DNA of 64,000 nt from Alexandriicola marinus. GTDB lineage: Bacteria > Pseudomonadota > Alphaproteobacteria > Rhodobacterales > Rhodobacteraceae. The notes below the pieces were generated by a model. The model saw only the letters and a program-made list of their open reading frames with translations, had not been told where the DNA came from and made no database searches. Position numbers and translations under genes: made by a program. The DNA is taken from contig NZ_RBVZ01000001.1 of assembly GCF_004000435.1 (NCBI RefSeq), positions 871,536-935,535 on the forward strand. The letters are read 5' to 3'. This document shows positions 1,551-16,687 of the stretch, piece by piece; positions within the stretch are counted from its first letter, which is position 1; every line of letters starts with the position of its first letter.

Positions 1551-1781
1551 GATAGTTCAGCCCTTGAGTTGATGCGGGTATCGGTTGGATTGAGCCTACC
1601 CCTCCGCGCGATTGCACGAAACATGGCAAGGGGCGCAATCATTGTGCGCGGGCGAACAATCTTAGGAACAGCAGTCCCGACTGTCGCGCAAACCCTCGGG
1701 GCAGGCCGATTATTGCATTGCAGGCCGGTGGCCTTCCGGGTTGATACTGGGTCTGTTAAGCGGCGAGGCAAGCACGAACCG

Positions 1782-1803
1782 GGCGCCACCGCGTGGTGGC
1801 GCC
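1782..1803. promoter_or_regulatory. Perfect inverted repeat ahead of the AGE epimerase gene
   Basis: Arms GGCGCCACC and GGTGGCGCC (9 bp each) flank a 4-nt loop GCGT. The structure ends 9 bases before the AGGGGAAA ribosome binding site of the gene starting at 1825, so it sits in the probable 5' leader. It could be an operator or an mRNA hairpin affecting initiation. No U-tract follows, so it is not a simple terminator. The rest of the 274-bp divergent spacer (1551-1824) shows no gene. Confidence 0.5.
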
Positions 1804-1824
1804 TGCCAGAACAGGGGAAATGAC

Positions 1825-3084
1825 GTGGCGGAAGGCAAGACAATCCTGGGGCCGGACGCGCCCGATCAGCGCTGGCTGGAAGACCCCCGGCACCGGGACT
1901 GGCTCCGCTCGGACGCGATCCGGCAGATCGATTTCTTTCGCAGGAGCCTGAGGCCCGATGGCGGCTTCGACGCGCTTGAAACCGACGGCACCCCGATCCC
2001 CGGCGCTCCGCAAGAGCTTCATGCCACGACACGGATGGTCCATTCCTTTGCCATGGCCCATGCCGCGGGCGCGCCCGATTGCGCCGAGGTCATCGAGGCC
2101 GGGCTAGCCTATATCTGGTCGCGCCATCGCGATCCCGATCACGGCGGTTATCTCTGGTCGCTCCATCCCGACGGGCGCATCGACCGCGACGTGAAGCTGG
2201 CCTATGGTCATGGCTTCGTTCTGCTGGCGGCCTCGAGCGCGAGGGCCGTGGGCTTCGATCAGGCCGATCCGATCCTTGCCGATATCACGCAGGTCATCGA
2301 GACCCGGTTCTGGGACGACGGGGCAGGGCTCCTTTTCGATGAGTTCACGCGCGACTGGCAGCCCTTCTCCGAGTATCGCGGATATAATTCCAACATGCAT
2401 GGCTGCGAGGCCCTGATGGCGGGGTTCGAGGCGACGGGCGATGTGGGGTATCTCGACAAGGCGGGCCGCATTCTCGATTTCTTCACCGCGCGCATTGCGC
2501 CCGCCCATGACTGGCGTATCCCCGAGCATTTCACGCCCGACTGGAGCGTCGACATGGCCTATGAGGGCGATCCGATGTTCCGCCCGCGGGGCACGACCCC
2601 GGGCCATTCCTTCGAACTGGCGAGGCTGTTGCTGCAATACTGGGATCTGCGCAGGCGGCCCGAGGGCGACATGCCGGCGCGCGCCCGCGCGCTGATGCAG
2701 ACCGCCCTTGATGACGCGTGGGTCGCCGATGGGGGCGGCTTTGTCTACACGCTCGACTACGCGGTGGCGCCGCAGATCACCGACCGCTATTGGTGGCCCG
2801 TGACGGAGGCGATCGGCGTTCTGGCAGCCTTTCTCAAGATCGAGGACCGACCCGAGGACGAGGCTTGGTATCGCCGCGTCTGGGGCGCGGCGGCGGACCT
2901 GTTCGTCGATGCCGAAAGGGGCGGCTGGATCCCCGAGGTCGACGCGGCCGGTCGGCCCGCGCCAAGGCAATTCATCGGCAAGCCCGACATCTATCACGCG
3001 CTTCAGGCCGATCTTCTGCCGCTTGCGCCGGGGCTGTCGCGCAGCATCGATGCGCTGAAGGGATCAGACCTGCTGGCCCCGTAA
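1825..3084 (+). CDS. AGE family epimerase/isomerase (mannose isomerase-like)
   Basis: A 419-aa protein of the N-acylglucosamine 2-epimerase fold, an (alpha/alpha)6 barrel that interconverts free aldoses and ketoses or 2-epimers. Family-like segments include ELHATTRMVHSFAMA, DHGGYLWSLHPDG, YGHGFVLLAASSA, YRGYNSNMHGCEA and PGHSFELARLLLQYW, rich in the conserved His/Glu/Arg of the barrel. Length fits D-mannose isomerase or sulfoquinovose isomerase types. I chose the GTG at 1825 because AGGGGAAA at 1813-1820 is well spaced; an upstream ATG in frame at 1741 would read through a hairpin and has no Shine-Dalgarno. It converges on the sugar ABC operon with only 9 bases between stops, which suggests, but does not prove, a role in the same sugar pathway. 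Confidence 0.85.
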   Translation: MAEGKTILGPDAPDQRWLEDPRHRDWLRSDAIRQIDFFRRSLRPDGGFDALETDGTPIPGAPQELHATTRMVHSFAMAHAAGAPDCAEVIEAGLAYIWSRHRDPDHGGYLWSLHPDGRIDRDVKLAYGHGFVLLAASSARAVGFDQADPILADITQVIETRFWDDGAGLLFDEFTRDWQPFSEYRGYNSNMHGCEALMAGFEATGDVGYLDKAGRILDFFTARIAPAHDWRIPEHFTPDWSVDMAYEGDPMFRPRGTTPGHSFELARLLLQYWDLRRRPEGDMPARARALMQTALDDAWVADGGGFVYTLDYAVAPQITDRYWWPVTEAIGVLAAFLKIEDRPEDEAWYRRVWGAAADLFVDAERGGWIPEVDAAGRPAPRQFIGKPDIYHALQADLLPLAPGLSRSIDALKGSDLLAP

Positions 3085-3093
3085 CGGGGCCGG

Positions 3094-4146
3094 TCAGTCG
3101 CGGATCGCGCGGCCCTGCGCGTCGAAGAAATGCAGGTTGCCGGGCCCGAGTGTCAGGCCCATCCGCTGGCCCGGTGTGATCTCCGCACCACCGTCGACGC
3201 GCACATTGACCTGACCGGCGCTGCCGCAATCCATGATGACGAAAGTGTCGGCGCCGAGGTATTCGGTGACATCGACCGTTCCGTCCAGCTCTCCGCTGCC
3301 CTCGGGGCCCAGTTCGATATGTTCGGGCCGGATGCCCAGCGTGACCGCAGGCCTGTCGCCCGCAAAGGTCCCGCCGCGCGCGCCGTCGATCCGGTAGCGG
3401 CCCGCTTCGGTGCTGACCGGCAGGACGTTCATCTTGGGGCTGCCGATGAATTGCGCGACGAACAGATCGGCGGGGCGCAGATACAGCTCCTTCGGGCTGC
3501 CCACCTGCGCGATGCGACCCGATTCCAGAACGACGATCCTGTCTGCCAGCGTCATCGCCTCGACCTGATCGTGGGTGACATAGATCATCGTGGCGCCCAG
3601 CGACTGGTGCAGTTTCGCAATCTCGTAGCGCATCTCGACCCGGAGCGCGGCATCGAGGTTCGACAGCGGCTCGTCGAACAGGAACGCCGTCGGATCGCGC
3701 ACGATCGAGCGGCCAATGGCCACCCGCTGTCGCTGCCCGCCCGACAGGTCCTTGGGCCTGCGGTCGAGGTAACCGTCGAGCTTGAGAACATGAGCGGCCT
3801 CGGCCACCTTGGCCGCGACCTCGTCCTTGGGCAGGCCCGCGGATTTCAGCGGAAAGCCCACGTTTTCCCGCACGCTCATATGCGGGTAGAGCGCGTAGGA
3901 CTGGAATACCATGGCAAGTCCGCGCTTGGACGGTGGCTCTGCCGTCGCGTCGCGCCCCGAGATCATGATCTGGCCGCGTGACGTCTCCTCAAGCCCCGCG
4001 ATCATACGCAGTAGCGTGGATTTTCCGCAGCCCGACGGGCCGACGAAGATGACGAATTCGCCCTCGTGGATGGCAAGGTCGACACCCTTGATCACCTGCG
4101 TGTCATCGAACCACTTCTCAACCGATTTCAATTCGATCGAAGCCAT
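3094..4146 (-). CDS. Sugar ABC transporter ATP-binding protein (UgpC/MalK type)
   Basis: A 350-aa CUT1-family ATPase. It has Walker [15 protein letters not shown]-loop region [14 protein letters not shown], signature [13 protein letters not shown], Walker [13 protein letters not shown] and the H-loop in [12 protein letters not shown]-terminal OB/TOBE region (about 240-350) is typical of MalK/UgpC. The start is the ATG whose first base is the last base of the glycosidase stop (TGATG), giving tight translational coupling. A longer in-frame extension upstream overlaps the glycosidase completely and was rejected. It should energise the two permeases encoded at 5408-7863. Confidence 0.95.
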
Positions 4147-5411
4147 CACGCCGCTCCTTGTGCAAGGGTTTCGCCGGCGCTCGGGCTGGCCCATGTCAGC
4201 CAGATCGCCGCGGTCCATGTGAAATCTGCCCCGCCGCAGGGCGTGGCGTCGAGCGGGTCGAAATATTCGTAGAAGCCGCCGCGCGTGATCAGTTCGCGCG
4301 TTTCCCGGCGCAACCGTGCCTCGAGTTCGGGCCGTCCGCCGCTGTGCAGGCCAAGCGCGATCAGCGCGTTGACGACAGGCCATGAGGGGCCGCGCCAATA
4401 GCGGCGGGACTCGAAAATCGCGCTTTCGGGGTCGGCGGAGGGAATGCCGAATTTCACCGCGTCCCAGGATCGCAGGAGGTGCTGTTCCAGTTCGGGCCGT
4501 TCCGCGCCCGCGAGATAGGCCAGAAACGCGCCCGAGCCCAGAACGCCCGCGAATTCGCCGTCGCGCAGGTTGCGCGCGTCATAGGCGCCCAGTGCGGGGT
4601 TCCAGATCGTTTCCAGCCCGGCGCGCAGGTCCGCGGCCCAGCCTTCGATCTCGGTCACGTCTTCACCGAGGGCGCGGCCGATGGCGGCCAGGTCGTCATG
4701 GGCGCGCAGCAGGATGAAGGTGATGCCCGGATCGGCCATGAGGAACGGCCCGTCGCGCACGATCCGGGCCTGATCCCAGCCGCAGCCGCGCCCGAACTGC
4801 ACCATCGCAAGATAGCGGTCATAATCGGCCTTGCCCGGCCGCATCGAGGGATCGACATGTCCGGTATCGCGGCGCGTGTAGTCGCCTACGTTGGACCCGT
4901 CCACATCGGCCATGCCGATATCCCAGTCCGGGCAATTGTCTCGGCCGCTTTCCCATGGATGGGTAATCGCGGCCGCACCGCTGCCACAGCGATACTCGGC
5001 CCACCAGCGGTGCCACGCGCGCAGCGCGGGAAAGAGCGCTCGGATCCGGGCCTCGCCCAGATCGCGATCCCGGTCCCAGATCAGGCGCGCCAGGATCGCG
5101 GCTACGGGCGGCTGGCTGATGCCGGACGTGGCCGGCACATGGCCCGTGCCCCAGACATCCGGCCCCGGGAAATAGCCCGGATCGTCGCGGTGAAAGATGA
5201 TGTGCGGCACCATCCCGTCATCCCATTGCGCCGAGAACAGCGTATCGAGTTCGTCCCAGGCGCGCGGCAGGTCGAAGGTCGAAAATCCCCAGGCTGCAAA
5301 GGCGCTGTCCCAGTTCCACTGATAGGGATAAAGCCCCGCCGTCGGCACCGTGTAGCCGCCGCGATCGTTGCCGCGCAGGATGGCGCGGGCGGTGTCGTCG
5401 TGTGTTGTCAT
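4146..5411 (-). CDS. MGH1-like / GH63-like glycoside hydrolase
   Basis: A 421-aa cytoplasmic protein (no signal peptide) of the (alpha/alpha)6 MGH1-like glycosidase group, which includes glucosylglycerate/mannosylglycerate hydrolases and GH63 relatives. Recognisable segments are [14 protein letters not shown] near the N-terminus, [14 protein letters not shown] (the Asp of this WESG-x-DN segment matches the general acid of the group), [20 protein letters not shown] and GGFYEYFDP near the C-terminus. It lies between permease and ATPase genes in one operon, overlapping both (ATGA and TGATG junctions), so it probably cleaves the imported alpha-glycoside. The substrate (glucosylglycerol, glucosylglycerate or another alpha-glucoside) is an inference. 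Confidence 0.82.
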
Positions 5412-6622
5412 CCTTTGACAGATCCTGCTGTGAGACCCTTGGTCATGAAGCGTTCCAACCCGAGGAAGATCACCATGATCGGCACCGTCGCCACCACCGA
5501 TCCCGCCATCAGGTGCTGGCGCGGAATTTCAGAGGAATTGAGCGAGGCGATGCCGCGGGTCAGGGTGAATTTCGACGGATCATCGAGAAGCATGAACGCC
5601 AGAAGAAACTCGTTCCAGGCGATCATGAAGACATAGAGCGAGACCGACGCCAACGCCGGAAGCGACAGCGGCAGGGTGATCTTCCAGATCACGGCCAGCC
5701 GGGTCAGGCCGTCCATCAGCCCTGCCTCTTCCACTTCGGACGGCAGACCCCGGAAATAGCCCTGAAGCATGTAAAGCGCGACAGGAATGGTCGTGACGGG
5801 ATAGATCAGCACGATCCCGAAGAACGTGTTGCGCAGCCCCGTCATCGAAAAGGCGATATAGATCGGCAGCGCGAGCACGATCATCGGCACCATGTAGATC
5901 AGAAGGATCGACCGCGAAAAAGCGGCCCGCCCGCGAAACCTCAGCCGCGCCACCGCATAGGCGCCCGGCACCGCGAACAGAAGCGTGATGATCACCGTGA
6001 GCACCGAAATCAGCGCCGAGTTGACCATGTAGGTGCCGAAGTTGAAGTCGCGGAACAGCTCCTCGTAGGAGCGGAACAGATCCCAGCCCTTCGACAGGTC
6101 GATCGAGAAATCGAGCGGGTTCATCACCAGTTCGGACTGGTTCTTGAGGCTCGTCATCACCATCACGTAGAACGGGATCAGCACGATTGCGGTGAAGAAG
6201 ATATAACCGAAACCCGTCAGGAACCGGATCACCGCGCCTTCGAATTCGTGCCGCGTGAGCGCGCCGGGACTCAGGTCCTCCATGATCCGGAAGGTCGAGG
6301 CGGCAAAGCCGATCCCGAGGATCAGCCCGCATATCCCGCGCGACAGGGCCGGGACGTCCGGCCCCACCACCACCGGCCCCACGCCCGCGGCGATGAACAC
6401 GACGACCGCCACAGCGACCAGCGCGCTTGCCGCGCGTCGGGGCCGGATCGCGAGGAAGGCCGCGCCACCGATCGCGCCCCAGACCAGCGACCAGAGCATC
6501 GCCGGACGGAATGCCTCGCCCGTGGCAAAGGACATGGCGACCGCGACGGTCACCGCCAGCGTCACCATCCACAACGCGCCCAGCAAGGGCGCCGCGACAT
6601 ATCCGAACCGCAGCGCGCTCAC
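5408..6622 (-). CDS. Sugar ABC transporter permease, MalG type, with extra N-terminal membrane segments
   Basis: A 404-aa inner-membrane protein. The last ~270 residues are a standard CUT1 permease. The canonical first helix begins near residue 138 (FGYIFFTAIVLIPFYVMV). The EAA loop reads VEEAGLMDGLTRLAVIWKITLP. The first ~130 residues contain about four additional hydrophobic segments (roughly 7-33, 42-58, 64-88, 95-112) not found in ordinary ~280-aa MalG homologues, although AglG-type alpha-glucoside permeases are also longer than MalG. The start is a GTG overlapping the stop of the upstream permease by 4 nt (GTGA). The stop likewise overlaps the glycosidase start. Confidence 0.92.
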   Translation of the reverse strand: MSALRFGYVAAPLLGALWMVTLAVTVAVAMSFATGEAFRPAMLWSLVWGAIGGAAFLAIRPRRAASALVAVAVVVFIAAGVGPVVVGPDVPALSRGICGLILGIGFAASTFRIMEDLSPGALTRHEFEGAVIRFLTGFGYIFFTAIVLIPFYVMVMTSLKNQSELVMNPLDFSIDLSKGWDLFRSYEELFRDFNFGTYMVNSALISVLTVIITLLFAVPGAYAVARLRFRGRAAFSRSILLIYMVPMIVLALPIYIAFSMTGLRNTFFGIVLIYPVTTIPVALYMLQGYFRGLPSEVEEAGLMDGLTRLAVIWKITLPLSLPALASVSLYVFMIAWNEFLLAFMLLDDPSKFTLTRGIASLNSSEIPRQHLMAGSVVATVPIMVIFLGLERFMTKGLTAGSVKG

Positions 6623-7863
6623 AGCCCTTCCTCCCGGCTGATGAATTTCAGGAAGAAGATGGAAAAGGTCAGCAGGCAGGCAAAGATCACCACCGCCACC
6701 GCAGCCCCCGCGCCAAGGTTCGACAGGGCAAAGGCCTGTTCATAGACATTGACCGTCAGCGTTCGCGTGCCCGCATTGCCGCCCGTCAGCAGAAAGATGT
6801 CGTCGAACTTGTTGAACGTCCAGATAAAGCGCAGCAGGAACAAGACGCTCAGGATGCCCAGCAGCTGCGGCATCGACAGATACCAGAACTGCTGGAACGG
6901 CGAGGCGCCATCCATGTCGGCGGCCTCGTACATGTCGTTGTCGATCGATTGCATCCGGGCGAGGATGAACAGGAACGACAGCGGGAAATAGCGCCATATC
7001 TCGAACACCGTGACGGTGATCAGTGCAAGCGGTCGTTCACCGAAGAAATTGATCGCCTCGTCCGTCACGCCCATCTGGATCAGGAGTGCGTTGGCCGAGC
7101 CCGAGAACGGATCGAACAGAAGGATCCACGCGAAGGCCACCGCAATCACCGGCGCCACATAGGGAAAGAGATAGAGCCCGCGCAGGATACCCTGACCCCG
7201 AAAGCTCTTGTTCAGCAGGAGTGCGGCAAACAGGCCGAAGACAAGCGCCCCGATCGTGCCGAAGACGGTATAGAACAGCGTGACCCACAGGACCGACCAG
7301 AATTCCCGCCCGTCAAAGATCCGGGCGAAATTCTCGAAGGTGAAGGTCGCATTGGTCAGCACGTTCGAGGCATCGCCGCGCACAACCGCCGGATCGTCGC
7401 GGGGGCCAAGACCCGCGTCGAAATAGGATTGCTCCACAATGACGGGGATTTCGATCGTCTCGCGTGCGCCCGGGTCCCAATCGCCGAATTCGCAGGTCAG
7501 GACGCCCGCCTCGATCACGCAGGTCTCGGGCAGTTCGCCGATCACCAGTCCCTCGGGGAGCGTGTCTGTAAAGCCCACGCCAAGGATCGGCTGCGCCTGG
7601 CTGCTGTTTCGCAGGCGGTAGCGCAGGGTCGCCTCGTCGCCGGCCACCTCGGGATTGCCGCGCAAGTCTTCGCGCATCGTGACCTCGGGCGGGCGCAGAT
7701 CGGCCAGCGTCACCGGTTTCACCGATATCCAGAAGATCGCGAGAAGCGGCAGGATGACCACCAGAGACACCGCCGTGATCGTCGGCAGCAGCAAGCCCCA
7801 GGCAAGCCGTGCCTCGCGGCGCGCCAGCGGCCCCGTTCCTTTCGGTGGTGTGATCTCGGTCAT
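6619..7863 (-). CDS. Sugar ABC transporter permease, MalF type, with DUF11-like periplasmic insertion
   Basis: A 414-aa inner-membrane protein. The first helix is about 21-47. A periplasmic loop of roughly 130 residues follows before the next helix near 188. Within the loop, residues about 74-145 resemble a DUF11/Ig-like beta repeat: RYRLRNSSQA, then GVGFTDTLPEGLVI, two cysteines (C115, C124) and the ending WDPGARETIEIPVIV. The remaining part is a normal CUT1 permease core with an EAA-type loop (MYEAADMDGASPFQQFWYL). It partners with the MalG-type permease just downstream. It is separated from the binding-protein gene by 95 bases with two stem-loops. Confidence 0.92.
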   Translation of the reverse strand: MTEITPPKGTGPLARREARLAWGLLLPTITAVSLVVILPLLAIFWISVKPVTLADLRPPEVTMREDLRGNPEVAGDEATLRYRLRNSSQAQPILGVGFTDTLPEGLVIGELPETCVIEAGVLTCEFGDWDPGARETIEIPVIVEQSYFDAGLGPRDDPAVVRGDASNVLTNATFTFENFARIFDGREFWSVLWVTLFYTVFGTIGALVFGLFAALLLNKSFRGQGILRGLYLFPYVAPVIAVAFAWILLFDPFSGSANALLIQMGVTDEAINFFGERPLALITVTVFEIWRYFPLSFLFILARMQSIDNDMYEAADMDGASPFQQFWYLSMPQLLGILSVLFLLRFIWTFNKFDDIFLLTGGNAGTRTLTVNVYEQAFALSNLGAGAAVAVVIFACLLTFSIFFLKFISREEGL

Positions 7864-7958: not shown

Positions 7959-9302
7959 TTACTGGATCGCAGCCAGCTCGTCGTTCAGCGCGGCGACGGT
8001 GGCGGCGGCATCCCGCTCCCCGTCGATATATTCGCGCACCAGCCGGTTGATGACCTGGCTGTTGATGATCGAGGAGGCGAGGCTCAGCTGACCCTCGTTG
8101 ACACCCCAGCGCTGTGCCACGTCGAGGCCGCCGACGATCTCGTTGATCATCGCCGCGTCATACAGCTCGCCCAGCGGGGCCTTGCGGTCCACGCCCACAT
8201 CCAGCGTCGACCACAACTCCGAGAAGGCGGTCGGATCGTCGGCCGTGCCGCGGCGCACCGGGAACTTGCCCTCGGGCGCGATGGCAAGGGTCTGGCCATA
8301 GCCTTCGCCCATCGAATATTCGACGAATTCCATCGCCGCGTCGGTGGCGGCATCAGACGTGATCCCGAAGTAGCGAACATCGCCCCATGCGGCGCCATCG
8401 GGGTTCGAGGGGCCGGCGAAGTTGGTGACGATGCCGGTCTTGGACGCCAGCTCGGACGAGGTCGGGTCATCGTTGATGGTGGGCGGCGCGCTGTCGCGCA
8501 GACCGGCCAGTTCGTCAAGGATGAAGGGCGACCAGATGATCATCGCGGCGTTGCCACTGAAATAGAGCGTGCGCGACTGATCCCAAAACAGATCACCCGG
8601 CGGAGAGGCTTCGGCGATCGCCTTGTAGAATTCGAGGACTTCGATTGTCGCGGCCTCGTCCAGCGGTTCGAACCCGTCGGGGCCGACGGGGCTCACGCCA
8701 TTGGCTAGGAAGACATGCTCCAGAACCTGGCTCATGAAGTTTTCGTCCACCTTGGTGGCGGCGACAAAGCCATACATCTCGGGCGGGTTGTGCAGCGCAT
8801 CGACGGCGGCCAGCACGTTGGCATAGGAATTCGGCGGCTCGAGCCCGTTTTCTTCGAACAGATCCGCGCGATAGACGATCATCTGCGTCCAGCCGTCCAC
8901 CGGAACGGATGCATAGCCGCCGTCGAAGGACGCCATGTTCAGCGCGCCGGGCGCGAATGTATCGGCGCCAAGCGCCTCGACCACGTCGGTCGCGGCATCG
9001 GTATCAAGGATACCCGCCTCGGCCCACGGCAGGGCGTATTGCAGCGTGTGATAGATGACATCGGGCAGATCGCCCGCGGCAAAGGCGGCGGTGGTCCGCG
9101 TGCCCAGATCATTTTCCGAAACCGGGATCACCTCGACGGTGTGGCCCGTTGCGGCCGCGAAATCGGCAGCCATCTGTTCCTGACGGGCCAGCCGCTCGGG
9201 TTGTTCTTCCGTTGTCCAGAAGCGCAGCGTTTCCGCCTGTGCGCCCGATGCCAGGACCAGCGCCATCGCGGCGCCTGACAGGATTTTCGCTCTGAGTTTC
9301 AT
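7959..9302 (-). CDS. Sugar ABC transporter substrate-binding protein (extracellular family 1)
   Basis: A 447-aa periplasmic protein with a classical Sec signal (MKLRAKILSGAAMALVLASG, cleavage after AQA about residue 23). The mature start TLRFWTTEEQPERLARQEQM and the segment FAAGDLPDVIYH are typical of family 1 solute-binding proteins. A GGAGGAAAAC ribosome binding site precedes the ATG. It lies 11 bases after the lacI-type gene, so the two are probably co-transcribed. It should deliver the sugar to the permeases at 5408-7863. Confidence 0.93.
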   Translation of the reverse strand: MKLRAKILSGAAMALVLASGAQAETLRFWTTEEQPERLARQEQMAADFAAATGHTVEVIPVSENDLGTRTTAAFAAGDLPDVIYHTLQYALPWAEAGILDTDAATDVVEALGADTFAPGALNMASFDGGYASVPVDGWTQMIVYRADLFEENGLEPPNSYANVLAAVDALHNPPEMYGFVAATKVDENFMSQVLEHVFLANGVSPVGPDGFEPLDEAATIEVLEFYKAIAEASPPGDLFWDQSRTLYFSGNAAMIIWSPFILDELAGLRDSAPPTINDDPTSSELASKTGIVTNFAGPSNPDGAAWGDVRYFGITSDAATDAAMEFVEYSMGEGYGQTLAIAPEGKFPVRRGTADDPTAFSELWSTLDVGVDRKAPLGELYDAAMINEIVGGLDVAQRWGVNEGQLSLASSIINSQVINRLVREYIDGERDAAATVAALNDELAAIQ

Positions 9303-9313
9303 CGTTTTCCTCC

Positions 9314-10435
9314 CTACGATGTCAAAGATTGGGGAGCGCGCTGTTGCGCGGTCTCCCGGTCGGTCGAAGTTGGTGGGCCCATGGACCCCCGGTCCAGAAA
9401 CCGGGCCGAGGCCAGTTCGCGCAGCGCCTCGGGGTCTTCGCCCCGGATGCGCCGGATCAGAAGCGCGGCAAGCCTTGCGCCACTGTAATGGTTGTCGACG
9501 GCGAAGGTATTGAGCGGCGGATCGGTGTGATCTCCCTCCGGGATGCCGTCATAGCCGATGACCGACAGGTCGCGGCCGATCACCAGCCCCAGCTTTTCGG
9601 CTGCGCGGTAGACACCGAGGGCGGCCATGTCGACGGCGCAGACAATCGCCGTGGGCCGGTCGGGCAGGGCGAGGATGCGGGCTGCGGCGTCGCTGCCGCC
9701 CTCGCGGGTGACGCAATTTCCGATCACTTGATCCTCGTTCACCGAAAGGCCCGCCGCCTGCATCGCGGCGCGAAATCCGCGCTCGCGCAGCCAGGCATAG
9801 GTATAGGTCTCGAACCCGCCGAGATAGGCGATCCGCCGATGTCCCAGCGCCACCAGCCGCTCCACCGCCGAGGCGATCGCGGCCTCGCCCTCAATGTCGA
9901 ACCACGCGCAACCATGGGGATCGCGCGTGCGTCCGAACAGGACGAACGGCACGTCTTCATCGAGAAGGAGCCGGATGCGGGCATCGTCCAGACGGGCCCG
10001 AGGCAGGATGAAGCCATCGGCCTTGTGATCGGCCAGCATAGCGCGGAACGTCTCGAGCGTGGTCTCTTCGCTCGCGGAGGAGGCGACGGTCAGGGTATAG
10101 CCCTCGGCGCTGGCGGCATCAGACACGCCTGCGAGGAATTCGGCGAGGAACGGCCGGTGCGCGTCATGATCGGATTGCTGGATGACAAGCCCCAGCGACC
10201 GCGACAGTCCCGTCCGGATCGCCTGCGCCTGGCTCAGGGGCCTGTAGCCCATGGCATCGGCCTTGCGGCGGACTTTCAGGCGGGTGGCCTCGGAGATATC
10301 GGCATAATCGTTGAGCGCGCGCGACACGGTGGATTTCGTCAGACCCAGCGCGTCGGACACGTCCGAAATCGTCACCCGGCCACGCCGGCTGCGGGGTGTC
10401 GCCGCCTTCGATGTGCGTTCGGTCGCAGACATCAT
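9314..10435 (-). CDS. LacI family transcriptional regulator
   Basis: A 373-aa regulator. The N-terminal helix-turn-helix reads VTISDVSDALGLTKSTVSRA with the hinge region near RRKADAMGYRP, followed by a periplasmic-binding-protein-like effector domain (about 75-345). Two ATG codons are adjacent (10435, 10432) behind GGGAGGACAAG. It heads the sugar operon on the same strand, and a perfect palindrome of LacI-family type lies 28 bases upstream of its start. Autoregulation and control of the whole operon are therefore likely. The inducer is unknown. Confidence 0.92.
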   Translation of the reverse strand: MMSATERTSKAATPRSRRGRVTISDVSDALGLTKSTVSRALNDYADISEATRLKVRRKADAMGYRPLSQAQAIRTGLSRSLGLVIQQSDHDAHRPFLAEFLAGVSDAASAEGYTLTVASSASEETTLETFRAMLADHKADGFILPRARLDDARIRLLLDEDVPFVLFGRTRDPHGCAWFDIEGEAAIASAVERLVALGHRRIAYLGGFETYTYAWLRERGFRAAMQAAGLSVNEDQVIGNCVTREGGSDAAARILALPDRPTAIVCAVDMAALGVYRAAEKLGLVIGRDLSVIGYDGIPEGDHTDPPLNTFAVDNHYSGARLAALLIRRIRGEDPEALRELASARFLDRGSMGPPTSTDRETAQQRAPQSLTS

Positions 10436-10462
10436 CTTGTCCTCCCGAGACTAGGCTCGGTT

Positions 10463-10569: not shown

Positions 10570-10953
10570 TTATTCGCCCCGCGGGTCGGTCGTCTCGTTC
10601 AGGAGAGGCGGATCATCGTAAAGCGCCCAGCCATAGTCCCGGCCGGTCTCGGGCAGGTCATTGCGGGTCGCATTGTGGGCGAGATAGGCCTTGGCGATGA
10701 AATTCGCGGTGATCGGCGCCGTGAGGAACAGGAACAGCGTGATCAGCAACTCGTGGAACGAGAAGCTGCCCTTGACCAGCAGGAAATACAGCATCGACGC
10801 TATCAGCGCGCCGCCGACGCCAAGGGTCGTGGCCTTGGTCGGGGCGTGCAGCCGCTGCATCGTATCGTCGAGCTTGATCAGCCCGAACGATCCGACAAGT
10901 CCGAAGATGCCGCTCAGCACGATGAAAAAGCTGATGATGATCTCGACAACCAT
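10570..10953 (-). CDS. phaG: Cation/proton antiporter subunit G
   Basis: A 127-aa membrane subunit of the Mrp/Mnh/Pha antiporter. It has three hydrophobic segments and the MnhG-type core GSFGLIKLDDTMQRLHAPTK near residues 25-44. It is the last gene of the operon phaAB-C-D-E-F-G, 15 bases after phaF. Subunit G is needed for complex assembly and activity. The C-terminal ~35 residues are hydrophilic. Confidence 0.93.
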   Translation of the reverse strand: MVVEIIISFFIVLSGIFGLVGSFGLIKLDDTMQRLHAPTKATTLGVGGALIASMLYFLLVKGSFSFHELLITLFLFLTAPITANFIAKAYLAHNATRNDLPETGRDYGWALYDDPPLLNETTDPRGE

Positions 10954-10968
10954 GGTCCTGTCCCCCGT

Positions 10969-11238
10969 TTATTCGATGATGTCGCCGCGCAGCATGAAGC
11001 GGCAATAGGCGACGGTTGAGACGAAGCCGACCATCGCGACCAGCATCGAGGCTTCGTAATAGACGGCCGTCCCCTCGAGAATCCCGTAGAGGATCAGAAG
11101 CGCGATCACGTTGATCACCATCGTGTCGAGCGCGAGGATACGGTCAGCGGCATCCGGCCCGCGCGTGATGCGCCACAGGTTGAAGATCAGCCCCAGCGTA
11201 TAGCAGGCAAAGGCAAAGAGAAGGGCCGCAGATATCAT
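10969..11238 (-). CDS. phaF: Cation/proton antiporter subunit F
   Basis: An 89-aa protein with three transmembrane helices. The segment LWRITRGPDAADRILALDTM is characteristic of MnhF/PhaF. The start overlaps the phaE stop (ATGA), indicating translational coupling. Confidence 0.93.
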   Translation of the reverse strand: MISAALLFAFACYTLGLIFNLWRITRGPDAADRILALDTMVINVIALLILYGILEGTAVYYEASMLVAMVGFVSTVAYCRFMLRGDIIE

Positions 11239-11726
11239 ACGAAGATCTCCTTCAGCCGGCGCTCATAGCGCGATTTGATCGTGTCCCTGACCTCGTCGGG
11301 CGTCTCGGTATGGAGGCAATGCACAAGGATGCTGCCCGCATCTGCCGACAAGGTGGCCGAGACCGTGCCGGGCGTCATCGTGATCGTTCCGGCCAGAACG
11401 GTGATGGCCTCGGCCGATGTCAATTCCAATGGGATGACGATCCACTGGGATTTCAGGTCGGCCTTGCGGCGGAACAGGATGATGGCGGCAACCTCGATAT
11501 TGGCGACCACGATATCCCACAGCACGACCAGAAAATATTCGACAACGGCAAAGGGTTTCTGGATGCGTGGCCGGTCGGGCCAGTAGGGCGCGGTGATCAT
11601 CGGCACGGCGAGGCCGAGGAACGTGGCCAGAACCACGTTGCCGACGGTCACCTTGTTCACGAGGGCCAGCCAGACGATGCCGAGTGTCAGGCTCAGGAGC
11701 GGGTGGGGGATCAGGCGGCGGATCAT
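11235..11726 (-). CDS. phaE: Cation/proton antiporter subunit E
   Basis: A 163-aa membrane subunit. It has two or three helices near the N-terminus and the MnhE-like segment TVLAGTITMTPGTVSATLSA, followed by a cytoplasmic part containing LVHCLHTETPDEV. It starts 3 bases after phaD. Confidence 0.93.
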   Translation of the reverse strand: MIRRLIPHPLLSLTLGIVWLALVNKVTVGNVVLATFLGLAVPMITAPYWPDRPRIQKPFAVVEYFLVVLWDIVVANIEVAAIILFRRKADLKSQWIVIPLELTSAEAITVLAGTITMTPGTVSATLSADAGSILVHCLHTETPDEVRDTIKSRYERRLKEIFV

Positions 11727-11729
11727 GGA

Positions 11730-13271
11730 TCAACCCTCTTCCTGTTGGCCAAGGACCGCGGCGATATAGCCGTCGCGGTCGTATATCTGGGCGGTGGCGT
11801 CCTCGGCAAAGCTCATCACCGGGCCGGCAAAGATCGACATGCCGCCAAGGATTGCCAGGATCGCCATCGTGGGGGCGAGTTCCGCCACCGTCAGGCGCCG
11901 CGGTTCGGCGACCTCGGTCTCCGGCGCGGACTCATCAGGCGCGTCGGTCGGCGTGGTCTTCCAGAAGATCATGCTGCCCGCGCGTGCGAAGCCCACGATC
12001 GTCACGAGGGAGCCGATCAGGATCGCGCTCCAGGCCCAGGTGATCTGCCCGGGCATCCGCAGCGCGTCGAGAACCAGCAGCTTGCCGAGGAACCCGCTCA
12101 GCGGCGGCATTCCCGTCATCGCGATGGCCGCGCCAAAGAACAGCGCCGCCAGAAGCCCGGTCTGGGCCATGGCTGGGCGGGGCGACAGGGCCTGCCCGTC
12201 GCGGCGCGACAGCACGAGGTCGGCCAGAAGGAACAGGGCCGCCGCGGCAAGGGTCGAGTGCAGCAGGTAATAGAGCGCGGCGGCCGTCGCCTGCGGCGTC
12301 AGGGCCGCGACGGCGATCATCAGCGTGCCCATCGATCCCACGACGGAAAACGCGATCAGGGGCAGCAATTGCCGCGCGCCCAGCACGCCAAGCGCACCGA
12401 GGGCGATGGTGATGATCGCCGCCGGAAAGAGCCAGGTCCCCGGGATGTCCTGCGTCGCCTCGAGCCCCGGGCCGAACGACACGGTATGCACCCGGATGAT
12501 CGCATAGGCCCCCACTTTGGTCATGATCGCGAAGAGGGCCGCGACCGGGGCTGGCGCGTTGGCATAGGTGGCCGGAAGCCAGAAATGCACCGGGAACAGC
12601 GCGGCCTTGACCGCGAAGACGATCATCAGAAGCATCGCGGCGACGCGGATCAACCCGGCCTCGGCCGGATCGGCCTCCTGGAGGCGGAGCGCGATATCGG
12701 CCATGTTGAGCGTGCCGACACTGCTGTAAAGCACACCCAGCGCGAACAGGAACAGCGTCGATCCCGCGAGGTTGATGACCACGTATTGCAGGCCCGCACG
12801 CATCCGTTCGCGGCCACCGCCATGGATCATCAGGCCATAGGACGCGATCAGAAGCACCTCGAAGAAGACGAACAGGTTGAACACGTCACCTGTCAGGAAC
12901 GCGCCCGCGATGCCCATCAGCTGAAACTGGAACAGCGCGTGGAAATGGCGGCCCCGCGCATCCCATCCCGTTGCGATCGCGTGGATCAGCACCGCGAGGC
13001 CCAGAACCATGGTCAGCAGAACGAGGATCGCCGAGAGCCGGTCCAGCACCAGAACGATGCCGAAGGGGGCGGGCCAGTTGCCAAGGTCATAGACCTGCGT
13101 CTCGCCGCCCGCCGCACTGACCGTCAGACCCATTGCGATTGCAACTAGAACGATGGTTCCGGCGACCGACGCGATCCGCGCCATCGTCAGGTCGTGACGC
13201 ATCACGAAGCCGATGATCGGCGCCAGAAGGGCCGGCAGAAGAACGGGAAGAATTATCCAGTGGCTCATCAT
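11730..13271 (-). CDS. phaD: Cation/proton antiporter subunit D
   Basis: A 513-aa polytopic protein of the proton-translocating NADH-quinone oxidoreductase / MrpD family. The central region includes LPATYANAPAPVAALFAIMTKVGAYA with the conserved Lys of the channel. About 14 helices are expected. The start overlaps phaC by 4 nt. With PhaA it is thought to form proton/cation pathways of the complex. A hydrophilic segment after residue ~435 (DAPDESAPETEVAEP) is an acidic insertion before the last helix. Confidence 0.94.
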   Translation of the reverse strand: MMSHWIILPVLLPALLAPIIGFVMRHDLTMARIASVAGTIVLVAIAMGLTVSAAGGETQVYDLGNWPAPFGIVLVLDRLSAILVLLTMVLGLAVLIHAIATGWDARGRHFHALFQFQLMGIAGAFLTGDVFNLFVFFEVLLIASYGLMIHGGGRERMRAGLQYVVINLAGSTLFLFALGVLYSSVGTLNMADIALRLQEADPAEAGLIRVAAMLLMIVFAVKAALFPVHFWLPATYANAPAPVAALFAIMTKVGAYAIIRVHTVSFGPGLEATQDIPGTWLFPAAIITIALGALGVLGARQLLPLIAFSVVGSMGTLMIAVAALTPQATAAALYYLLHSTLAAAALFLLADLVLSRRDGQALSPRPAMAQTGLLAALFFGAAIAMTGMPPLSGFLGKLLVLDALRMPGQITWAWSAILIGSLVTIVGFARAGSMIFWKTTPTDAPDESAPETEVAEPRRLTVAELAPTMAILAILGGMSIFAGPVMSFAEDATAQIYDRDGYIAAVLGQQEEG

Positions 13272-13624
13272 GCCCGGTCCTCGTCACCTGCAGGGGCGGG
13301 ATCGTCCATGTTGATCTCGTCGGTTTCCGCCTCGAAGAACGCGCCGAGCGCGATCATCACCAGAACGGCCGTCATCCCGAAGGAGATCACGATCGCCGTC
13401 AGAACCAGCGCCTGAGGAAGCGGGTCGGTATAGCTCGCCTCGCCGTATTTCTGCAGCACCGGGGGCATGTTGATGGCCAGCCGACCCGAGGCGAACAGGA
13501 ATACGTTCACCGCGTAGGACAGCAGCGCAAGCCCAAGGATCACGGGGAAAGACCGCAGGCGCAGGACAAGATAGACGCCCCCCGCGGTCAAAACGCCGAC
13601 GGCGCTGGCAACGATTAGTTCCAT
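13268..13624 (-). CDS. phaC: Cation/proton antiporter subunit C
   Basis: A 118-aa NuoK-like subunit with three helices and the MnhC-type motif YGEASYTDPLPQALVLTAIV. The acidic C-terminal tail (EAETDEINMDDP) is cytoplasmic. It starts 2 bases after the phaAB stop. This phaC is the antiporter subunit, unrelated to polyhydroxyalkanoate synthase. Confidence 0.93.
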   Translation of the reverse strand: MELIVASAVGVLTAGGVYLVLRLRSFPVILGLALLSYAVNVFLFASGRLAINMPPVLQKYGEASYTDPLPQALVLTAIVISFGMTAVLVMIALGAFFEAETDEINMDDPAPAGDEDRA

Positions 13625-13626
13625 TG

Positions 13627-16497
13627 TCAGACCTCTCCCTTTTCGTCGACGATTGCCTGCTTGGGGTCGTAATCCATCGGATCGACGTTGATCGGCTCAC
13701 CCGCATAGCGCGCGATCCGCGACAGGCTGTAGAGCATCAGCATCACCGCCCCCAGAACCGTCATGAACACACCCAGATCAAACAGGAACGCGGTTCCGAT
13801 GCCGAATTCCTCGATCGGAGGCAGTTCGACATAGCCGTAGAGACTTGTCAGGAAGGGCGAGTTGTAAAGCCAGGCGGCCGCGCCGGTCAGACCCGCGACA
13901 AGCGCGCCGATGCCGATCAGCGCGTGGTATTCGACCCGCTGGCGGTTCTGCGTCCAGGCAAAGCCCGACGCCATGTATTGCATCAGAAGCGCGATCGAGA
14001 TGACGAGGCCCGCGACAAACCCGCCGCCGGGCTGGTTATGGCCCCGCAGGAAGATGTACACGCCCACCATCACCGCGATCGGCATCATCACCCGGGTCGC
14101 GACAACCATCATCAGCGGATGGCGGTCGCGCGACCGGTTCTGTGCATAGTCGGTATTGCGCAGCCGCCGCGCGGCGGGTCCGTTCAGAAGCGTATCCATC
14201 AGGGCATAGATCACGAACCCCGCGATGCCGAGCACGATGATCTCGCCATAGGTGTCATAGCCGCGGAAATCCACGAGGATGACGTTCACCACATTGGTGC
14301 CGCCGCCCCCGGTGTAGGAGTTTTCAAGGTGATAGCCCGAGATCGTGTCGACATCGCGCAGCATGAAGGCATAGGCCAAGGCACCCACGCCGCCGCCGGC
14401 CGCGATCGCGATCACGCCGTCGCGCAGCTTGAGCAGGCCGGAGCTTTCCCTCGGCGTCGATTTCGGCATGAAATGCAGCGCCAGCAGCAACAGCATGATC
14501 GTCACCGTCTCGACCGAGATCTGCGTCAGCGCGAGGTCTGGGGCCGACAGGAACACGAAGCCGAAAGAAATCATCAGGCCGATGATCCCGATCAGCACGA
14601 GTGCCCGGAACCTGTGATGGTGCATCACCACGATCGACCCGGTCGCCACGATCAGCATCAGCCAGCCCGCCAGAACAGGAAGCGAGACCGGCAGCATCTC
14701 GCGCGACGGGGTGGCAAGCCCGCTTCCGCCGAAGGCCACGGCCCCCAGCGCGACCGAAGCGACGATCAGGATCGCCAGGTAGCGGCTGATCGAGCCATTG
14801 TGGCTTGCCTCCGTGACGCGGCGCGACAGGGCGGCCACCTGTGCCACGATCCAGTCGAAGATCGCCTTTGCCTCGGGGCGGGGCAGGGCGTTCCAGATGC
14901 GGTTCAGCCCGCCGTGCAGGGCAAGGAACACGAGCCCGCCCACCACGGCAATGATCGACATGAAGAGCGCGGCATTCACGCCGTGCCAGATCTTGAGCGA
15001 GTAATAGGGCATCTCGGCATCGCCGATCACCGCACCGCCTGCCACCGCGACCAGCGGGCCGACGATCGCCGCCGGCACGATGCCGATCACGACGACAAGA
15101 GTCGCCAGAAACGCAGGCCCGGCCCACATGCCGAAGGGCGGATCATGCGGCTTGGATGGATAATCGTCGCGCACCGGGCCAAAGAACACATGCCAGATGA
15201 AGCGCAGCGAATAGGCCACCGACAACAGCGCCCCGACGGTCGCCAGAACGGCGACGATCAGCGGGTTGCCCGCCCATGTCGTGTCATGCGCCGCGTCGAG
15301 CATCATTTCCTTCGACAGGAACCCGTTGAACAGCGGAATCCCCGCCATCGACAGCGCGGCGATTGTGCCGATCACGAAGGTCACCGGCATCAGCCTGCGC
15401 AACCCGCCCAACCGGTTGATGTCGCGGGTTCCGGTCTCGTGGTCGATGATACCGGCGGTCATGAAGAGCGCGGCCTTGAACGTCAGGTGGTTGATGATGT
15501 GAAAGACCGCGACCACGGCGGCAAAGGGCGTGCCGATGCCCAGAAGCATGGTCAGAAGGCCGAGGTGGCTGACCGTCGAAAAGGCCAGAAGCGCCTTGAG
15601 GTCATCCTTGAAGAGCGCGATCAGCGCGCCGATCACCATCGTGACAAGGCCGGTGGTCGCCACGATGTAGAACCACGCATCCGTCCCGGCGAGTGCGGGC
15701 CACATCCGCGCCATCAGGAACACGCCCGCCTTCACCATGGTGGCCGAATGCAGGTAGGCCGACACCGGCGTGGGCGCCGCCATCGCGTGCGGCAGCCAGA
15801 AATGGAACGGGAATTGCGCCGACTTGGTGAAGGCGCCCAGCAGGATCAGGATCAGCGCGGGGATATACCAGTCCGAGGCCCGGATCGCGTCGCCGGCCTG
15901 AAGGATCTCGGATATCTTGTAGCTGCCCGCGATATCGCCAAGGATCAGCATCCCCCCGATCATTGCAAGACCGCCGGCACCGGTGACCGCAAGCGCCATG
16001 CGCGCGCCCTGACGGCCCTCGGGCAGATGGCTCCAGAACCCGATCAGCAGGAAGGACGACAGCGAGGTCAGTTCCCAGAAGATCAGCAAAAGCAGGATGT
16101 TGTCCGACAGAACGATGCCCAGCATCGCGCCCTGGAACAACAGAAGATAGGTGAAGAACACTCCCATCGGATCGTTACCCGACAGGTAGAAGCGCGCATA
16201 GAGCGTGATCAGAAGCCCGATGCCGAGGATCATGCCCGCGAACAGCAGGCTCAGCCCGTCGAGCATGAAGCTGGCCGTCAGGCCAAGCTGCGGCAGCCAT
16301 TCGATTTCGGCGTGAATTGTCTCGCCCCGCATGACGGCGGGCGCCAGCACCAGAAGAAGCAGGAGGGCGAGCGCGGTCGGAAACGCGGTAAACCATGCAC
16401 ACGCCGTGCGTCCGGCCCGGATCATGACCCCGGGGAGGAGTGCTCCAAGAAATGGCAGGAGCGCGATAATCACCAGAAAATTGCTTGAGTCTGTCAC
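13627..16497 (-). CDS. phaAB: Fused cation/proton antiporter subunits A and B
   Basis: A 956-aa protein joining the large NuoL-like MrpA part (about 1-750), containing FHFWLPHAMAAPTPVSAYLH and HLTFKAALFMTAGIIDHETG, to an MrpB-like C-terminal part (DRHPLMMVVATRVMMPIAVM, GHNQPGGGFVAGLVISIALL). The A-B fusion is the usual arrangement in alphaproteobacterial Pha systems. I prefer the GTG at 16497 (MTDSSNFLVIIALLPF); a TTG at 16560 in frame adds 21 polar residues and has no ribosome binding site. It is the first gene of the six-gene operon, which confers Na+ or K+/H+ antiport and pH or salt tolerance. Confidence 0.93.
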   Translation of the reverse strand: MTDSSNFLVIIALLPFLGALLPGVMIRAGRTACAWFTAFPTALALLLLLVLAPAVMRGETIHAEIEWLPQLGLTASFMLDGLSLLFAGMILGIGLLITLYARFYLSGNDPMGVFFTYLLLFQGAMLGIVLSDNILLLLIFWELTSLSSFLLIGFWSHLPEGRQGARMALAVTGAGGLAMIGGMLILGDIAGSYKISEILQAGDAIRASDWYIPALILILLGAFTKSAQFPFHFWLPHAMAAPTPVSAYLHSATMVKAGVFLMARMWPALAGTDAWFYIVATTGLVTMVIGALIALFKDDLKALLAFSTVSHLGLLTMLLGIGTPFAAVVAVFHIINHLTFKAALFMTAGIIDHETGTRDINRLGGLRRLMPVTFVIGTIAALSMAGIPLFNGFLSKEMMLDAAHDTTWAGNPLIVAVLATVGALLSVAYSLRFIWHVFFGPVRDDYPSKPHDPPFGMWAGPAFLATLVVVIGIVPAAIVGPLVAVAGGAVIGDAEMPYYSLKIWHGVNAALFMSIIAVVGGLVFLALHGGLNRIWNALPRPEAKAIFDWIVAQVAALSRRVTEASHNGSISRYLAILIVASVALGAVAFGGSGLATPSREMLPVSLPVLAGWLMLIVATGSIVVMHHHRFRALVLIGIIGLMISFGFVFLSAPDLALTQISVETVTIMLLLLALHFMPKSTPRESSGLLKLRDGVIAIAAGGGVGALAYAFMLRDVDTISGYHLENSYTGGGGTNVVNVILVDFRGYDTYGEIIVLGIAGFVIYALMDTLLNGPAARRLRNTDYAQNRSRDRHPLMMVVATRVMMPIAVMVGVYIFLRGHNQPGGGFVAGLVISIALLMQYMASGFAWTQNRQRVEYHALIGIGALVAGLTGAAAWLYNSPFLTSLYGYVELPPIEEFGIGTAFLFDLGVFMTVLGAVMLMLYSLSRIARYAGEPINVDPMDYDPKQAIVDEKGEV

Positions 16498-16687
16498 TGG
16501 CCCGATCTCTTGTTCCGATTTCGGGATGAGATAGAGTTCGAATGCCGGAATAACAATCAAAACCGGTCAGGAATTCGAAACGACAGCCGAAATACGGGAC
16601 GCAAATTGTCGCATATTTGTGCAGTGGTAAAGATTTGGGCGCTGAAAAGAATGACCACACCCACCTCGCTTGGCCGGCGACCCCTGT

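Follow-up and report, generated by a model that had tools for sequence, protein, structure and literature searches.

A predicted DUF11-type domain at the P2 site of a MalF-type sugar permease from Alexandriicola marinus

Introduction

It is, to our knowledge, unsettled why a large periplasmic domain is found in some type I importers but is missing from most. The question is raised by a gene in a 64,000-nucleotide stretch of Alexandriicola marinus DNA (the window; NCBI RefSeq assembly GCF_004000435.1, contig NZ_RBVZ01000001.1, forward-strand positions 871,536 to 935,535) that encodes an ATP-binding cassette (ABC) sugar permease of the MalF type, here called F (414 residues; window positions 6619 to 7863, minus strand). 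An earlier reading made from the letters without database searches (the sequence-only reading) had noticed, within the first periplasmic loop of F, a beta domain resembling DUF11 and had suggested that it might dock the binding protein or sense the envelope. We found the domain itself to be borne out by its predicted fold, by Pfam matches across the family and by profile comparison, and by alignment it lies at the place where the MalF of the E. coli-type MalFGK2 transporter carries its P2 domain. Our reading, to which we give a probability of roughly 55%, is that a DUF11 domain was gained at the P2 site and docks the binding protein there by convergence with P2. In a literature search on DUF11 and ABC transporter permeases, no such permease is named among the titles listed.

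Results

The permease and its insert

F was identified from its open frame and translation, which run from 7863 to 6619 on the minus strand; the plus-strand frame over the same stretch is its antisense reading. Pfam placed BPD_transp_1 (PF00528) on residues 207–408 (E 1.8e-15), the UgpA, MalF and GlcT models each matched below their cut-offs, and a PDB sequence search matched SugA and MalF. The segment YEAADMDGA (residues 312–320), the EAA-type loop, was invariant or nearly so across 50 aligned rows. Having both the permease domain and this loop, F is a member of the MalF/UgpA-type permeases.

Loop lengths were compared in an alignment of F, 36 further permeases that have the insert and 12 that lack it. 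From the end of the first transmembrane (TM) segment to the start of the second there were 134–140 residues in 37 of the 37 insert-bearing rows, whereas all 12 of the others had 23–29. Relative to its nearest relatives, the first periplasmic loop of F holds about 112 extra residues, placed between a conserved L-x-x-L-R after TM1 and F-T-x-E-N-F before TM2. Taking loop lengths, structural model and DUF11 matches together, we assign the insert to F residues ~58–173 (7345 to 7692, minus strand), made up of a predicted sandwich at ~61–150 and a less ordered linker. The earlier estimate of about 70 residues agrees with the DUF11-matching part (residues 73–145) but falls short of the extra sequence as a whole.

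Modelled alone, the insert gave a mean predicted local distance difference test score (pLDDT) of 82.9 and a predicted template modeling score (pTM) of 0.71. The model was nearly all beta, with strands at permease residues 61–68, 77–86, 93–101, 106–108, 115–118, 121–129 and 134–143, and the full-length model of F gave the same insert strands. In structure comparisons it matched immunoglobulin-like (Ig-like) sandwiches at Z scores of 9–10, with many tied rows; these included integrin, a translocon-associated (TRAP) chain (Z 9.8, root-mean-square deviation 2.3 over 98 residues), the CLIPPER domain of a Gram-negative fibrillar adhesin (Z 9.8, 2.7 over 105 residues), cellulose-binding domains and adaptin mu. 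Matches of this kind to a model define its fold class, not its function. The insert is thus confidently predicted to be an Ig-like beta sandwich, the fold that the sequence-only reading had expected structure prediction to reveal. No MalF chain was among the 50 structure rows listed for the insert model, which does not prove that the folds differ, and a sequence search for a solved relative gave nothing useful (best E 0.42, YicC).

The D-TLPEG core and the C...C pair noticed in the earlier reading are present, at residues 100–105 and at residues 115 and 124, respectively. Both cysteines were invariant, occurring in 81 of 81 sequences of one alignment and in every one of 109 distinct sequences that bear the insert; they lie on two adjacent predicted strands (7492 to 7521, minus strand) and probably form a disulfide. 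Asn86 was also kept in 109 of the 109. Of the same sequences 106 share D100, 104 share P103 and 99 share G105, and arginine was found at positions 83, 85 and 134 in 106, 106 and 103. Two groups of residues, L53, L56 and R57 near the membrane and R83, R85, N86, S87 and S88, were each present in 104 to 109 of the 109 sequences; judged by this conservation they are spots that could form a contact.

Membership in the DUF11 family

Scanning of whole F with Pfam gave DUF7933 (PF25564) at residues 70–110 (8e-05) and DUF11 (PF01345) at residues 73–145 (0.045), both under the curated cut-offs. When 50 inserts were scanned singly, DUF11 was matched by 48 (best 4.5e-08) and DUF7933 by 42 at E ≤ 1, and by 16 and 4, respectively, at E ≤ 3e-05. 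Alignment with hhalign of the insert profile to five DUF11 repeats gave a probability of 97.5% (E 6.2e-12) over 76 columns, with the elements G-D, R/TNNSS/G, D-TLP-G, C...C, LG and G all in register. These five repeats came from a search with the insert's own hidden Markov model (HMM) and are not a blind sample, a bias that is offset because Pfam independently called DUF11 in the four of the five repeat proteins that were scanned (6.8e-29 to 4.9e-08). Over 398 genomes of the phylum, the insert HMM had matches in 24. In 16 of them the match lay in an F-type permease, all in the window's class and 12 in its family; in the remaining eight it lay in other open frames, six of at least 866 residues. 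Four of those eight non-permease frames (L114–L117) were fetched and scanned, and are DUF11 repeat proteins by Pfam.

The insert is therefore like the DUF11 and DUF7933 repeats of bacterial and archaeal surface proteins in its core, which is in register with theirs, and in its predicted Ig-like sandwich, the fold expected of DUF11. It is unlike them in being one copy inside a membrane transport protein and in its nearly invariant R-x-R-N-S-S. The usual DUF11 context, that of repeats in large surface proteins, is not that of a single copy in a permease of 414 residues; we regard this context as a habit of the family, not a condition, and consider membership of the insert in the DUF11 family well supported. 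A coincidental beta motif was rejected on the basis of the per-insert DUF11 matches and the profile comparison.

The insert and the MalF P2 domain

When the insert profile was compared by hhalign with nine MalF P2 domains, the probability was 0.6% over 8 columns, and MalF_P2 (PF14785) was absent from the seven families matched by the 50 inserts at E ≤ 1. Homology of the insert to MalF P2 was rejected on these sequence results. The comparison with P2 that had been called for thus found, as far as it went, two domains unrelated by sequence that share a place.

The shared place emerged from the permease cores. The insert-free F family and the nine MalF proteins freed of P2 could be joined in a single alignment (99.7%, E 1.2e-25, 282 columns). 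It matches TM1 of F to the helix that precedes P2 and, broken by small gaps only, continues past the junction into the core. A single-sequence search agreed; its MalF match begins at F residue 173 and MalF-chain residue 258, near the ends of both inserts. By these alignments the DUF11 insert is at the P2 site, between the first two core helices. F is like MalF, then, in having a MalF-type core with an extra periplasmic domain at the same position, and unlike it in that the insert is smaller, about 112 residues compared with 149–164 in matches to the P2 model. In a simulation study, P2 comprises residues 91–271 of MalF, again longer than the insert, and its segment 240–249 is reported to contact MalE directly (PMC3150292).

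In the window's genome the MalF_P2 model matched one gene only, and this was not F but another MalF (contig C24, 356010 to 356456); together with the insert of F, this match places both kinds of permease in one cell. Near the MalF gene with a true P2 (locus L142, P2 at ~10011–10457, minus strand) there are MalG-, MalK- and LacI-type genes and a weak GH13 match.

Distribution and origin of the insert

A tblastn search over genome contigs with full-length F yielded at least 580 relatives, and we examined the best 80 of 580. The insert was present in 80 of these 80; they were ranked with a full-length query, so this is not a homologue-wide count. An assembly artefact or gene-fusion error was rejected, as the same insert recurs in these best 80 relatives. 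In a sample of the class, 10 of 385 genomes had the insert, all ten in a permease. A core-only query of plasmid records gave five matches above 60% identity, all insert-bearing; the next match was at 45%, and none of nine fetched plasmid matches at 45% and less had the insert. With the whole protein as query against 61 genomes, full-length matches were found in 7 (68–100%), the next being a core-only match at 38%. Further core-only matches, that is, related permeases without the insert, are present in the window's own genome.

A tree was made from 49 hand-picked permeases, 37 of them insert-bearing, with the insert columns removed. All 37 fell on one side of one branch (support 99/95), and a single change sufficed for the insert in every one of 200 bootstrap trees, against a mean of 11 when shuffled. 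The nearest insert-free row was an actinobacterial one (L121, a Nonomuraea permease, 45% identical over the core); its place as sister group is provisional, because several insert-free rows are long branches and the search outside Pseudomonadota for the nearest insert-free relatives covered plasmid records only. We concluded that the insert was probably gained once, in an alphaproteobacterial clade; all insert-bearing permeases seen so far are from Alphaproteobacteria. Within the insert clade, the first to branch off in the tree is L143 (G191:C43), from a genome of ~1.0 Mb, which has the same gene order and a divergent insert in a permease 42% identical to F.

An extension on the partner subunit

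The partner of F is G, a MalG-type permease of 404 residues (5408 to 6622, minus strand), recognized from its open frame, a MalG model match under its cut-off, and PDB matches to SugB and MalG. The best PDB sequence matches of F and G are SugA and SugB, respectively, of LpqY-SugABC. The PDB alignments of G start at residue 134 or later. The preceding residues, ~1–130 (6233 to 6622, minus strand), form a hydrophobic N-terminal extension with about four TM segments predicted from hydropathy, to which a Pfam scan found no match. Among the 111 distinct clade members of G that were compared, 109 have at least two predicted TM segments before the core, one of the two exceptions being cut by a contig end; the number of segments ranged from 2 to 6, most commonly 4, as judged by a hydropathy window only. 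Such an extension was found in 0 of 12 partners of insert-free permeases and in 0 of 22 other MalG-type proteins from the class sample. At this sampling, gain of the F insert and gain of the G extension fall on the same branch. The actinobacterial L121 and haloarchaeal permeases, with their short loops, have no G extension. In MalF, two additional N-terminal helices belong to the subunit that carries P2; in contrast, the extra helices of the clade transporter sit on G.

The binding protein

Upstream of F is the gene for an extracellular solute-binding protein (7959 to 9302, minus strand; SBP_bac_1/8), with a signal peptide, assigned by eye, and no lipobox. None of 82 distinct readable N-termini of binding proteins from the clade has a lipobox, a likeness to MalE, which is a soluble binding protein. 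A lipobox is present on the binding proteins of the three nearest insert-free systems (L121, L124 and L125). A soluble binding protein in the insert clade, together with the position of the insert at the P2 site, makes docking of that protein the most likely role for the domain.

The operon and its probable substrate

Downstream of G are genes for an MGH1-like glycoside hydrolase of the mannosylglycerate/glucosylglycerate hydrolase type (4146 to 5411, minus strand; PF22422, 5.3e-118) and a MalK/UgpC-type ATPase (3094 to 4140, minus strand, the start at 4140 being chosen inside a longer frame to 4398). A LacI-family regulator, assigned by Pfam, lies upstream of the binding protein (9314 to 10435, minus strand), and an AGE-family epimerase of the mannose isomerase type is divergent (1741 to 3084, plus strand; PF07221, 1.2e-102; D-mannose isomerase model below its cut-off). 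Overlaps of 4 bases between F and G and between G and the hydrolase gene indicate that the gene order reads as one operon. With locus genes called at identity thresholds of 45–55%, F and G were adjacent on one strand in all 78 of the 80 loci in which both were found. The 65 loci with full flanks had the binding protein, G and ATPase in every case and the hydrolase in 58; overall, the hydrolase was found in 70 of 80. The gene order was kept in six deeper loci (L143–L148) as far as their contigs reach. The AGE enzyme was near 6 of the 80 loci, and glycerate kinase, whose genes adjoin the system in Limimaricola and Maritalea, near 4; among the neighbours read for substrate, we therefore count only the hydrolase as part of the system. 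Ten flanking proteins from four of the seven long loci lacking the hydrolase matched no glycosidase family at E ≤ 1e-10.

The closest solved chain to the hydrolase is 2z07 (T. thermophilus TTHA0978; E 5.2e-101). In an alignment with 6g3n, which we take to be M. hassiacum glucosylglycerate hydrolase (MhGgH; the PDB entry reads 'Mycobacterial hydrolase'), it keeps the residues aligned to Asp182, Arg216, Tyr222 and Glu419, numbered by eye. These numbers, which include the catalytic Asp and Glu and the glycerate-binding Arg, are those of section 3.5 of the M. hassiacum paper (PMC6608630). The operon hydrolase is like TTHA0978 and MhGgH in aligning over nearly its whole length as well as in its key residues; its score with the NCBIfam glucosylglycerate hydrolase model was 340 bits, below the 550 cut-off. 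From these similarities the operon most likely serves uptake of mannosyl- or glucosylglycerate, which the hydrolase would split in the cell. Mannosylglycerate (digeneaside) is a red-algal solute, and the operon is present in many Rhodobacterales records.

On a Paroceanicella plasmid (L119) the same transporter occurs without the MGH1-like hydrolase, adjoined by a GH13-type enzyme and dihydroxyacetone kinase, so the substrate may vary. Elsewhere in the window, a minus-strand frame at 12 to 1550 was seen by eye to join CDGSH-type iron-sulfur motifs to a glutamate-synthase-like domain, and minus-strand frames at 10570 to 16560 resemble, again by eye, subunits of Mrp/Mnh-type sodium-proton antiporters.

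Discussion

We propose that the DUF11 domain would stand above the permease on its periplasmic face and, much as P2 serves MalE, would hold or orient the soluble binding protein while substrate is handed over; the likeness in function would have arisen convergently, with no common descent. Bracing of the complex may fall to the extra TM segments of G. An alpha-glycosyl-glycerate would be imported and then cleaved inside the cell by the MGH1-type hydrolase. Docking is plausible because the insert is at the site of MalF P2, part of which is reported to contact MalE (PMC3150292); on our analysis, we put docking of the binding protein by the insert at about even odds. The observation of the domain is right. 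Its gain at the P2 site is clade-wide, it belongs to another family than P2, and a corresponding change is seen in G; what the domain does is our inference.

Several results weigh against this proposal. As regards the family assignment, the window's own insert scored 17.6 bits with DUF11, below the 24.6 cut-off, and the DUF11 model, run over the window's entire genome, listed no match there. As regards the single clade, many insert-bearing tree rows were found with the insert HMM or a full-length query, which favour insert-bearing genes. The full-length model of F was weak in its membrane part (mean pLDDT 60.9, pTM 0.36), and placement of the domain over the permease is therefore not taken from it. 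The docking suggestion of the sequence-only reading gained from the position of the insert but received no support from co-evolution. In tests on 79 sequence sets, with the cytoplasmic ATPase as control, the partial correlation of pairwise distances, other subunits being held constant, was 0.23 for insert and binding protein (permutation 0.002) versus 0.41 for insert and ATPase (0.001). Residue covariation with the insert gave a top z of 7.95 for the binding protein versus 7.37 for the ATPase, and pairs with z > 5 numbered 10.2 and 11.1 per 10,000, respectively, with only 38 effective sequences; neither test, then, put the insert-binding protein signal above the control. The insert also diverges fastest (mean distance 0.47, versus 0.22 for the binding protein and 0.14 for the permease core), which is unlike a tight interface over the whole domain. 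Finally, three more distant insert-free systems (L126–L128) have binding proteins without a lipobox; as they are unanchored and yet lack the insert, a docking domain is not needed in general.

Other roles for the domain have to be set against docking. It might act jointly with the added helices of G or some other component of the envelope, placing or regulating the transporter without touching the binding protein. The co-occurrence of insert and G extension in the clade and not in its relatives would fit such a role, as would the presence of DUF11 repeats in long surface-type proteins (L114–L117) and the fact that the insert-ATPase correlation was the highest of six, which hints at a general constraint and not one specific to the binding protein. 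The divergence of the insert and that of the G extension were uncorrelated, however (partial r 0.05, permutation 0.2), and the precedent of P2 at the same site favours docking, so that we consider this role unlikely though deserving of some weight. The fast sequence change of the insert, and the existence of related permeases without it in the same genome, might instead indicate that the domain is tolerated and largely neutral, its only role being to stabilise. If the insert were dispensable, some lineages should have lost or broken it, whereas it was kept in all five core-only plasmid matches above 60% identity and in the best 80 of 580 relatives (ranked, as noted, with the full-length query), has a nearly constant loop length in the 37 tree rows, and retains Cys115, Cys124 and Asn86 throughout; a neutral role seems to us improbable.

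We give still less credence to the idea that the conserved arginines (83, 85 and 134) pre-concentrate an anionic substrate or that the domain shields the entrance. The conservation of these arginines and the predicted substrate, an acid, agree with it, but the arginines may form internal salt bridges and the substrate has already been selected by the binding protein; we judge it very unlikely. The position of the insert, and the fact that it and P2 are both periplasmic domains of MalF-type permeases, might suggest that it is no DUF11 domain but a diverged P2 passed down within the MalF family. This explanation, which we find the hardest of all to credit, is opposed by the profile probabilities (0.6% with P2, 97.5% with DUF11 repeats) and by the absence of MalF_P2 among the families matched by 50 inserts, and, the nearest permeases in the tree having no insert, it would need loss of P2 followed by its regain. 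Docking by a DUF11 domain gained at the P2 site is the reading that we retain.

That the binding proteins of the three nearest insert-free systems are anchored and those of insert-bearing systems are not suggests a trade, in which a system either anchors its binding protein or gives the permease a docking domain; the three distant systems with unanchored binding proteins speak against a strict rule of this kind. It is possible, at somewhat less than even odds, that MalF-type importers have arrived at two or more separate answers to the docking problem at one position in the permease: P2 in MalF of the enterobacterial type and, in the alphaproteobacterial clade, a DUF11 domain recruited from surface proteins, accompanied by four added helices on the other subunit. 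Permeases with P2 and with the DUF11 insert coexist in the window's genome, so the two could be compared in one cell. The operon is also marked as a candidate for uptake of glycosyl-glycerate osmolytes in many Rhodobacterales. An unrelated domain at the same site would be an independent case for what such a periplasmic domain is for.

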